Part shown: in pieces, positions 38,405 to 43,600 of the stretch
Layout of the letters: the number at the start of each line of letters is the position of its first letter
How positions within the stretch are numbered: the stretch's first letter is position 1
DNA from: Plasmodiophora brassicae
Lineage: Eukaryota; Endomyxa; Phytomyxea; Plasmodiophorida; Plasmodiophoridae
Assembly: GCA_039704465.1 (NCBI GenBank)
Contig: JASFAU010000020.1
Span: 496,001-560,000 of the forward strand
DNA length: 64,000 bases
Direction: 5' to 3'
Position numbers and translations under genes: made by a program
The notes under the pieces: model-generated
What the model saw: the letters and a program-made list of their open reading frames with translations, nothing else
Told to the model about the DNA's origin: nothing
Databases searched by the model: none

Positions 38405-40531
38405 ATGACGGACCAGGTCGCCTCGTCCCTGGACACGTCGTGGGTGCTGCAGAACGCCGTCATGGTCCTGACGATGCAGGCCGGGTCGACGTTCCTGCAG
38501 GTCGGCCTGACGCGGACCAAGTTCGTCGGCATCACCATCCTGAAGAACATGACCTGCATGGCCGTCATGGTCATCACGTTCGGCATCGCCGGGTACGCGT
38601 TCGCGTTCGGAAGCGGGTCGTCGACCGGGGCGACCACGTTCGTCGGCCTGCGGTACTTTGGCCTGGACGGCGTCCCCAGTTCCATGTACGGACACGCCTT
38701 CTTCCACATGGCGCTGGCCGTCACCGCCATGACGATCGTCGCCGCCGGCTGCTGTGAGCGGATCTTCTGCAAGCCGTACCTGATCTACGCCGCCGTCTTC
38801 GGCACCATCATCTACCCACCTGTCGCCCAGTCAGTACAGGCACGCCGCTCGGCGAATGTTCGTTCCTGGGGACTCACCGCGCGCGCCCGTGTTTGTGCTG
38901 ACAGCGCCGTCTGGTCCGCCGAGGGGTTCCTGTCGGCGTCGAACCCGTCGCCAGCGCTGCCGGTCGGCGCCATGGACTTTGCCGGCGCCGGCGTCGTTCA
39001 CCTGTGCGCCGGCGTCGCCGCCCTGACCTCCTGCCTGATATGCGGCCCGCGCGACGGGTTCCTCGACGAGAACGGCCACGCCAAGAGGACGACGACGACC
39101 AGTTACGCCAACGCGGGCATCGGTTCGCGACCCGGGCGGCCTGTCGCGCGCGCGCGTCATCCGAACTGACCGATGACAAACAGGGTGCATCCTGCTGTGG
39201 ATCGGGTTCTTCGCGTTCAACTGCGGGTCCACGAACGGGATCTCGACGCCGACGCAGGAGGACCAGGCCGGGCGGATCGCCCTGACGACCAGCGGGGCAT
39301 CGGCAGGTGAGCTCGCGCTCGTTGTAGACGTCGTCACCTCGCAGCCTGACGTGTGCGACGCGCGTTCCAGGGGCGGTGCTCGCCTCGGTCTGCATCGACC
39401 AGGTGCGCTCCGGCCAGATGGACATCATGAAGTGCATGAGGAGCTGCCTGGCCGCCCTGGTGGCCATCGCCAGCAGCTGCCACTCGGTGGAACCCTGGGC
39501 GTCCTGCTTGATCGGGGCGGGCGCCGGCGTCGTCGCCGACGCCCTCGACAGCGCCCTGCTGCGGTTCAAGGTCGACGACCCGATCGGCATCGTTCCCGTG
39601 CATCTCGGCGGCGGGCTCTGGGGCCTGCTCGCCGCTGGCATCTTTGCCCATCGCTACGGTCCGTATCTATGGGCGGGCCGCCATCTGTATCCACCGCCCG
39701 CTGACGTCGTCGTCGTCGTCGTCGTCGACAGGGACCGGCGTGATCTACGGCGATGGGCGCCTGCTGCTGTCGCAGGTCGTGGCGATCCTGTTCGAGACGG
39801 CGTGGGCCGGGGCGCTGTCGTTCGCGACGTTCCGCCTGATCGACCGGTACCTGGGCCTGAACGAGAGCGTCGCCAAGGGCGTCGAGACGTTCGGCGAGCT
39901 GGACGTCGAGCAGGCGCGCATGCTGAACGTCGACCACGCCATGCTGGCCAACCAGGGCGTGCGCATGATGGTGACGGACCCGAAGCAGGCGGCGCTGCTG
40001 TCCCGGTTCGTCCAGCACTGCCGCAAGGAGTACTGCGACGAGCAGGTCGCGTTCCTGATCGAGGCGCAGCGCGACCTAGCGTACGCGCGCAGCGTCGCCC
40101 CCGACGACCTGCCCGCCCGCACGCCCGACCTGCTGGCGCGCAAGGCGGCCCTGTTCCGCGAGTTCATCCGCAAGGGCGGCACGCGGCAGATCAACATCAA
40201 CGCCAAGCTGCACGACGTCATCCAGGAGCGCCTGGGCGACCCCGAGTTCGACACGATCGCCATGGCCATGGAGGAGATCTTCGCCATGCTGCAGAACGGG
40301 CCGTTCGCCCGGTTCTGGGTCCTCGAGCAGGCCCGCATTCACCAGCGGCGGATGGCGAGGCGCGGCGCGCGCAAGGTCGCCCCCGGCGGCGCCGGCGCCG
40401 ACTCCGACTCCACCGACGCCGGCGCCGGCCGCGCGACAACGCCCAGCAACCGGAAACGCGGCAGCGCCTACAACGTATCCGGGCAGCGCGAGCCGACCGC
40501 CAGCAGCACCGACCAGCAGCCGGAACCGTAA
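38405..40531 (+). CDS. Ammonium transporter fused to an RGS domain
   Basis: Five exons (38405-38829, 38905-39122, 39184-39306, 39371-39658, 39732-40531) encode 617 aa. Residues 1-390 are an AMT1-type channel: TSWVLQNAVMVLTMQAG, HAFFHMALAVTAMTIVAAG, MDFAGAGVVHLCAG with the first pore His, and DDPIGIVPVHLGGGLWG with the second. Residues about 430-550 are an RGS fold: KQAALLSRFVQHCRKEYCDE, LFREFIRKGGTRQININ, FARFW. The last membrane helix and the whole RGS lie in one uninterrupted exon, so the fusion does not depend on a splice call. RGS domains speed GTP hydrolysis by G-alpha. The tail (550-617) is low complexity. Confidence 0.9.
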
Positions 40532-40656: not shown

Positions 40657-43600
40657 ATGGCGAGCGACGCCGTCGAAGGATCCCGCCGCCGTATCCAGGA
40701 CAACGTGCTCGTCGCCGTGCGCGTGCGCCCATGCAGCGACGACGCGATCGTCAGCGTCACCGGCAACGACCTGTCGCTGGCGACGCCCCGCAGCAACCTG
40801 GGCGGCGGCGGCGGCGGCGCCCGATCGCACTCGTTCGCGTTCGACCGGTGCTACCTGGACGCCACCCAGGCCGACATCTTCGCCGACCTGGGCGAATCCG
40901 TCCTCAGGAACGCCTTTGACGGGTTCAACAGCACCGTCCTGGCCTACGGACAGGTGGGCGCCGCGTTCAACCCATGTATGGACGCGCCGTCTAACGACCA
41001 ACCCGCTGGCTGGGCAGACGGGGTCGGGCAAGTCCTACTGCATGATGGGGACGCCGGACAGCCCGGGCCTGATCCCGAACATCGCCTCCGCCCTGTTCGA
41101 CCGGATCGACCAGGTCGGCGGCGACGACCGGCGCCGAACGTTCCACTGCGAGGCCAGCTACCTGGAGATCTACAACGAGCGCGTGCGCGACCTGCTGGCG
41201 CCGGCCCGGGCCGAGGGCGCCGGCCTGACGGTCAGGGAGCACCCCGTCCATGGGCCGTACGTCGAGGACCTGAGCGTCATCCCTGTACGCGACGCTTGCC
41301 GGGCGGACTCGACGCCACCTGACACGACGACGTGGCCTTGATCCCCCCCACACAGGTGCAGTCGTTCGACGACGTGCAGCGGCTGATCACGCAGGGCAAC
41401 TCGGCGAGGACGGTGGCGGCCACGAGGATGAACGCAGAGTCGTCGCGGTCGCACGCCATCTGTACGTGCCGTACTGGCATCGCCCGCGCCTGTCCCTGAC
41501 GCCCGGACCCTCCCGACAGTCACGATGACGCTGAAGCAGGCGCTGAGCGACCGGACGTCGGGGGCCACCAGCGAGAAGGTCGCGCGGATGCACCTGGTGG
41601 ATCTGGCGGGCAGCGAGCGGCAGGTGAAGACGAAGGCCAAGGGGGCGCACCTCAAAGAGGCATCAGGTCCGGGTCACTAGATTCGTCGGTCGGCACCCAC
41701 CCGCTGACCGTCCCGCAGAGATCAACAAGTCGCTGGTGACGTTGGGGCGCGTCATCTCGGCGCTGGCCGACGCGAGCTCGGCGCCCCGGCGCCCGTCGGC
41801 GTCGTCGCCGCGTGCCGCCCACCCACACATCCCGTTCAGGGACTCGACGCTGACCTGGCTGCTCAAGGGCAGCTTTGGCCTGAGCGGGAACGCGCGCACG
41901 GCGCTGCTCTGCACGATCAGCGCCCGGCCGTCCGACTACGAGGAGACGCTGGGCGCCCTGCGATACGCTGCCCGGGTACGCTGGCTACGTGGGAGATGCT
42001 TCCGGCGCGCGTTCAGTAACCTCATGACATGCTTGGTCGCGCAGGCGAAGAAGATTGTGACGACGGCGGTGTGCAACGAGGATTCGGACGTGAAGGTCGT
42101 CGAGTGCCTGAAGCAGGAGATTGCGGGTACGTTGTGCCGCCCGTAGGGTTGGTGGGTCGCTCAGACGGCGCCGTGTGCGCCCGGCAGACCTGACGGAGCG
42201 GTTGAACCACGCGGAGCGCTGGAGCGCCCAGGAGATTGCGACGCTGACGACGGAGCTGGAGCAGAGCCAGAAGCTGATCGACACGGTCAACATGTCGTGG
42301 GGGGAGAAGCTCGCCAAAGCGGAGTCGATCCGGCAGCGACGCGAGCAGGCGCTGATCAGCGAGGGCATCGCCGTGAAGATGGACCCGGCGCTGCCGTTCC
42401 TGTGCAACCTGGCCGAGGACCCGGCCGTCAGCGAGTGCCTCGTCTACTACCTGAGGCAGGGCGAGACGCGGGTCGGACGGTCGCGGGACCTCGCCGCGCC
42501 CTGCATCGTCCTGCACGACGAGCACGTCCCCGACCTGCTGTGCGTCTTCACGAACATCAACGGGGCCGTCCAGGTGAAGCCGTGGGACGGGGCGCGCGGC
42601 GTCCACGTCAACGGGCAGACCGTCGAGCGCGCCGTCGCGCTGGCGCACGGCGACCGCGTCATCCTCGGCCGGCGCCTGTCGTTTCGGTTCAGCGCGTCGA
42701 TCCAGAGCATCGAGCGCAAGTCGATGCAGCGCTCGCAGGCGAAGATCGACTACGAGTTCGCGCAGGCCGAGCTGAACGCCAGGTCGGTGCGTGTCGCCTG
42801 CGGGCGCGCGCGTGTTTGCCGATGTGCGCGCCTGCTCGGGACAGGTTGTCGAGCGTCATCGAGGACCTGGAGCGGGAGCGGCAGCAGGTCCGACTGCTGC
42901 AGGAGCGCGTGCAGTCCACCGGCGCCGAATACAGCACGGCCGTGGCGCAGCTCGAGACGGAGCGCCTGGCCAAGCTGGAGCTGTCCCGGCAGCTGCAGTT
43001 CGCGGTGCGTAGTGTATTGATACGCCGGACCCGGGCGCCCTGTCACGGACTGACGCGGGAACTGCAAACAGCGCGAGCAGAACTCCGTGCACGAACGTTC
43101 GCTGGAGTCGACCAAGTCGCTGTCGGCCAGCCAGCAGCGGGAACTGCGCGCCGTGCACCAGGAGCTGCAGCTCGAAAAGGCGATGCGCATGGACCTGTCG
43201 AGGACGATCGACGCCATGTCGCAGAGCGTGCAGTCGCCGACGACGACGTGCGCCGCCGCCAGGGCCGACGTCGACGAATGGGTGGGCCGCGTCCTGCGGC
43301 GCGCCATCATGCGACGGCGCCGCGAGTCGTCGACGACCCTGGGCGAACTGCTGGCCAGCGTCGACCAGGCCAACGCCATGGCGCACGCGCTGTCGCACGA
43401 GGTCCTGTTCGACGTCGGCTGCACGTGGCAGGCTGTCGGGATCACGGTAGACGCCGACCATCCGTTCGTGGCTGGGAACGCGTGCTGATTACCGCAGGTC
43501 GTGCCCATCGTCCGCATGCGGCATCGCAGCCGAACGTTCTCGCTGTCCAAGTCGCAATTCAACCTGCTGTTCCTGCACCTGCGCGAGCTCTACTGCGAGG

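Follow-up and report, generated by a model that had tools for sequence, protein, structure and literature searches.

Can an ammonium channel and a regulator of G-protein signalling be parts of the same protein, and could the first then govern the second? The question is raised by a stretch of 64,000 nucleotides, referred to here as the window, from the rhizarian Plasmodiophora brassicae (class Phytomyxea; assembly GCA_039704465.1, contig JASFAU010000020.1, 496,001-560,000 of the forward strand). A gene at positions 38,405-40,531 of its plus strand encodes the protein that I will call Amt-RGS. The first-pass annotation of the window described an AMT1-like channel with both pore histidines that runs straight into an RGS domain, and proposed that the description be checked by profile searches, by structure prediction and superposition, and by a search for the same domain architecture elsewhere. 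The architecture is borne out below: Amt-RGS is a eukaryotic channel of the AMT1 type whose cytosolic tail has been remodelled as a linker plus RGS domain.

The splice model drawn from the sequence has five exons, encoding 617 amino acids and a stop codon. Its four introns are 61-75 bases long, have GT-AG borders and contain a single CTGAC apiece, in the 3' half. A P. brassicae entry at NCBI, "RGS domain-containing protein", is identical to the model across all 617 residues, so the NCBI annotators arrived at the same gene model; the entry carries both PF00615 and PF00909 and belongs to a cluster of five member sequences. Third-position G+C is 0.95 over residues 1-400 and 0.99 over residues 415-560. 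As the first-pass annotation had it, the final membrane helix and the RGS domain lie in one uninterrupted exon, the fifth. The fusion would be an artefact if two adjacent genes had been read as one, or if an intron stripped the RGS domain from the mature message, and exon 5 does offer in-frame ATG codons ahead of the RGS (M411, M418 and M426) as well as, in a scan for introns resembling the four real ones, ten overlapping candidates, three of them with a length divisible by three. All ten begin at 40000-40030, within the RGS. The stretch from the last helix to the RGS is free of candidates and belongs to a single stop-free frame that continues through the RGS; with the same model and its cluster of sequences present at NCBI, an artefact of either kind is very improbable. 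The fusion is almost certainly real and produced as a single protein.

The channel part matches PF00909 with 269.4 bits over residues 13-395 (profile positions 2-379 of 399) and is modelled in the Amt fold, with 11 helices ahead of the linker. The twin histidines H174 and H333 are kept, as are D166, W145, F226 and S230 (AmtB D160, W148, F215 and S219). Judged by alignment, the set of pore residues is essentially complete, and the protein is predicted to bind ammonium and probably conducts it. The only other Amt gene found in the genome (25.3 Mb in 21 contigs, the assembly used for all genome-wide searches) lies on contig C5 (572718-574118; L039), and its frame continues for about 37 residues beyond the last helix and then stops, with no RGS. 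An ammonium transporter gene, Pldbra_eH_r1s015g07621, is reported in PMC7415369 to be about threefold up in two soils as compared to a third; it could not be assigned to either of the two P. brassicae Amt genes.

The RGS part scores 35.3 bits against PF00615 (gathering cut-off 23.9) over residues 440-546, has the predicted RGS helical fold, and keeps the near-invariant residues of the family; Asn 506 is a conserved residue. The Amt and RGS parts were folded from separate alignments, because a joint alignment laid RGS pieces across the Amt domain. Profiles and predicted structures thus agree, part by part, with the description given at first pass. Judged from its sequence, the RGS part is likely to be an active GTPase-activating protein (GAP).

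Between channel and RGS the model places helices at residues 400-404, 407-415 and 420-431, running into the RGS. The tail motif E..G.[DN] is present in 55 of 64 Amt homologues, with HG next in 36 of these. Amt-RGS does not have the motif as such; the aligned E403, G406 and D409 are kept, with one residue extra. That Amt proteins fused to signalling domains are known in bacteria had been pointed out at first pass, and Ks-Amt5 of Kuenenia stuttgartiensis, an Amt-histidine kinase, is a case in point. According to PMC5764959, the linker of one Ks-Amt5 monomer lies beside loop 5 of its neighbour, and the authors find it plausible that the domains are coupled in this way. A similar geometry of linker and loop 5 would be available to Amt-RGS, if it is trimeric. 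The positions of these features are collected in Table 1, together with those of other RGS frames of the genome.

Table 1. Parts of the Amt-RGS gene (positions in the window) and other RGS-containing frames of P. brassicae (positions within the named locus).
Feature	Position	Strand	Content or basis
Exon 1	38405..38829	+	Start codon, residues 1-141 and 2 bases of codon 142; membrane helices 1-3 and most of 4
Exon 2	38905..39122	+	W145 (AmtB W148), D166 (D160), pore histidine H174 (codon 38999-39001)
Exon 3	39184..39306	+	F226 (inner gate, AmtB F215), N227, S230 (AmtB S219)
Exon 4	39371..39658	+	D325 (AmtB D310), second pore histidine H333 (codon 39601-39603)
Exon 5	39732..40531	+	Last membrane helix, linker, RGS domain, low-confidence tail, stop; single open frame
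Last membrane helix (residues 361-392)	39758..39853	+	Structure model
Linker helices (residues 400-431)	39875..39970	+	Structure model; position of the conserved Amt C-terminal regulatory tail, motif altered
RGS domain (residues 440-546)	39995..40315	+	Pfam match, predicted fold
Low-confidence C-terminal tail (residues 566-617)	40373..40528	+	Predicted local distance difference test (pLDDT) score <50 in full-length model
Three cyclic-nucleotide-binding stretches, then RGS	L040:1276-3069	+	Pfam
One cyclic-nucleotide-binding domain, then RGS	L041:2317-3600	+	Pfam
FHA-RGS	L051:2435-3211	+	Pfam
RGS-kinase, GRK-like order	L052:1283-3202	-	Pfam
Myosin-tail/RGS/FYVE-like	L058:3141-4769	-	Pfam; FYVE match below cut-off

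Directly downstream of the gene, on the same strand, is a kinesin motor gene (Kinesin profile match at 40816-41284).

How might ammonium act on such a protein? Amt-RGS would form a trimer in the plasma membrane, as for the Amt family, and its Amt subunits would hold the RGS domains at the membrane, three of them clustered. Ammonium binding or turnover would then move the cytosolic face at loop 5 and the C-terminal region, where coupling is proposed to occur in Ks-Amt5. The shift would alter how readily membrane-bound G-alpha-GTP gains access to the RGS, and with it how long the G-protein signal lasts. A channel whose binding or transport of ammonium modulates the access of its fused RGS to G-alpha is the reading I favour, by analogy, and one whose chances I would put at about even; that ammonium controls the GAP activity of the RGS is a claim I likewise hold in the balance. 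Control of G-alpha shut-off by ammonium flux or binding is plausible; to judge by sequence, the action may be of ammonium on the G protein or of the G protein on the channel. As a guess, and by analogy with glucose and AtRGS1 (discussed below), a decrease in GAP action under ammonium is slightly more likely than an increase; in AtRGS1 there is in any case a precedent for nutrient input at an RGS instead of at an exchange factor. More tentative is the fullest version of the proposal, a eukaryotic transceptor in one chain, in which an AMT1 channel, independent of the bacterial Amt-kinase and Amt-cyclase sensors, sets the lifetime of G-alpha through its RGS and so replaces a G-protein-coupled receptor as the controller of a heterotrimeric G protein.

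The proposal calls for a partner. A genome-wide search gave 82 G-alpha exon matches, which fall (grouped by eye) into about 25 loci above the cut-off, some of the weak matches being perhaps other GTPases. Ten loci were examined for two switch motifs: RxxTTGI, the switch I segment gripped by RGS domains, was seen in six and DVGGQ, on the matching strand, in nine. With motifs of the RGS type present at most of these loci, G-alpha partners compatible with RGS are likely to be available in P. brassicae.

The same genome contains 83 matches to PF00615. Twelve of the 29 RGS frames examined show the pattern of the seven-transmembrane (7TM) RGS receptors, with at least four hydrophobic stretches. These multi-helix frames carry the RGS after the helices, and several are adjacent to one another (L043, L045, L046 and L050). 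Ten RGS frames were scanned with Pfam, and others among them pair the RGS with cyclic-nucleotide-binding, FHA, kinase or myosin-tail domains. Given so varied a set of carriers, RGS has been widely shuffled in this genome, and Amt-RGS is one outcome. Among transporters, Amt is the only carrier of RGS seen in the genome, in a partial check of two other families: comparison by eye put no match to MFS_1 (10 matches, with 9 of 65 candidates scored) or Aa_trans (15 matches) within 2 kb of a same-strand RGS match.

This repertoire bears on two other ways of reading the protein. The Amt part may be a mere membrane anchor that keeps near G-alpha either a constitutive GAP or a scaffold that lacks GAP activity, with transport and RGS uncoupled. 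Where shuffling has placed RGS on multi-helix membrane, cyclic-nucleotide-binding, FHA and kinase proteins alike, and where the linker is predicted with low confidence, such an arrangement is easily imagined; yet a channel of 11 helices whose pore is nearly complete would be expensive as an anchor, and its pore residues have been retained in spite of the long branch described below. I consider an anchor unlikely, if far from negligible. Alternatively, signalling may run in reverse: active G-alpha would bind the RGS and thereby gate or traffic the channel, which would be the output, and the RGS would be an effector domain like that of RGS-RhoGEF proteins. That the near-invariant RGS residues are kept speaks against this, as does the fact that in 12 of 29 frames the RGS is borne by a multi-helix membrane protein, a setting in which a GAP role is usually assumed, and I would rank it as somewhat less probable still than the anchor.

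Where did the fusion come from? The Amt tree comprises 49 rows, 17 of the 64 homologues having been omitted beforehand (P0020, P0022, P0026, P0029, P0035, P0037, P0039, P0043 and P0057-P0065). A fork of 27 rows (support 93/77) unites the P. brassicae domain with the named eukaryotic sequences and some unnamed ones. Six homologues are themselves fused, four to a kinase (P0023, P0024, P0030 and P0040) and two to GGDEF (P0031 and P0044), and all six fall outside that fork. Descent from a bacterial Amt-kinase or Amt-cyclase fusion was accordingly rejected with moderate confidence, as a lean rather than a proof in view of the support values and a long P. brassicae branch (2.24, as against a median of 0.58). 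With the same moderate confidence, Amt-RGS may be taken as an independent, convergent fusion. The RGS tree places the domain in a fork with two rows from L050 (96/93), a hint that it derived from a membrane RGS gene; that origin is unsafe because the RGS branch is longer still (4.71, against 0.39).

A search with residues 340-560 (5118 candidates scored) matched only Amt-RGS itself, and in a search with the whole protein (7995 candidates sharing most words scored) PF00615 was found in none of the 64 other matches. A control search with the cyclic-nucleotide-binding RGS protein of L040 gave 119 matches, again with no other PF00615 row and no other plasmodiophorid among the rows (only some) that were named; the database may therefore contain few or no close relatives. 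No report of an Amt-RGS protein was found in the open-access literature searched; PMC5660106, retrieved for RGS domain and ammonium transporter together, concerns gene expression. The first-pass remark that no described protein of this kind was known therefore holds for the protein and literature searches, and the architecture search gave no second instance, within a sampling that may be thin for close relatives.

Several observations weigh against the favoured reading, in which ammonium modulates the access of the RGS to G-alpha. Phe at the outer gate (AmtB F107) is usual in Amt/Mep proteins, if not universal, and is L104 in Amt-RGS; among the 64 homologues the position is Phe in 52 and Leu in 3. 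AmtB G117, A120, G268 and R384, kept in at least 90% of homologues, are A114, C117, A284 and N395, and with these substitutions affinity for ammonium or its transport may differ. An internal ammonium site like that of Ks-Amt5 was rejected, since only three of the seven residues of the two-ion site (Q24, E31, N47, D50, T51, T109 and T112, corresponding to Q25, Q32, N48, C51, M52, T110 and A113) are kept and both acids are lost; the sensing mechanism of Ks-Amt5 is therefore not simply transferable. The RGS match has a modest profile score; among the 82 others in the genome, 54 outrank it by E-value. In the full-length model confidence is modest for residues 391-440 (54-76) and poor for the RGS (38-76), the latter because the alignment contained no RGS rows, and any placement of the RGS relative to the channel is therefore tentative. 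One of the ten G-alpha loci has neither switch motif, although introns may split motifs at loci scored as lacking them. Finally, fast change on both branches may come from relaxed constraint, and not solely from a new function.

As long as the channel and its signalling partner are different proteins, the receptor status of eukaryotic Amt/Mep proteins is difficult to establish. A natural fusion has input and output in one chain, and ammonium binding and GAP rate would be measurable on one purified protein. If the favoured reading is true, a channel joins the membrane parts that directly control G proteins, and a cell could turn ammonium uptake directly into G-protein signalling. P. brassicae, the clubroot parasite, lives in the roots of Brassica crops and causes a disease affected, according to PMC8298192, by nitrogen supply.

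Among known systems, Ks-Amt5 likewise carries a signalling domain behind the final Amt helix, but the output of Amt-RGS, unlike that of Ks-Amt5 and other Amt-kinase fusions, is a G-protein regulator, and in the tree its Amt domain stands apart from the four kinase fusions. None of the three Ks-Amt5 pore blockers (F27, Y30 and F34; S28, L31 and L35 in Amt-RGS) is kept, these and the ammonium-site residues being taken from PMC5764959. The best PDB sequence match of Amt-RGS (E 1.8e-36) is Sd-Amt1 of Shewanella denitrificans, whose entries (8qj3 and 8qj4) are titled as a receptor with ON and OFF states. The Amt-GGDEF proteins P0031 and P0044 are among the homologues of Amt-RGS, yet stand on a different branch; Sd-Amt1, which I take to bear a cyclase output, is not in the tree. 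AtRGS1 and the other 7TM-RGS receptors share the plan of a membrane sensor followed by a C-terminal RGS, and for AtRGS1 the input is a nutrient, glucose, with genetic evidence described in PMC3718340 as consistent with glucose halting GAP action. The membrane part of Amt-RGS is the 11-helix Amt fold rather than 7TM, and its expected ligand is ammonium rather than a sugar. As compared to Mep2, the yeast ammonium transceptor, which is not known to have a fused signalling domain, Amt-RGS has its output within the same chain. Both parts are therefore of known kinds, and signalling fusions of Amt are known in bacteria; what is new, as far as the searches reach, is an Amt joined to an RGS in a eukaryote.
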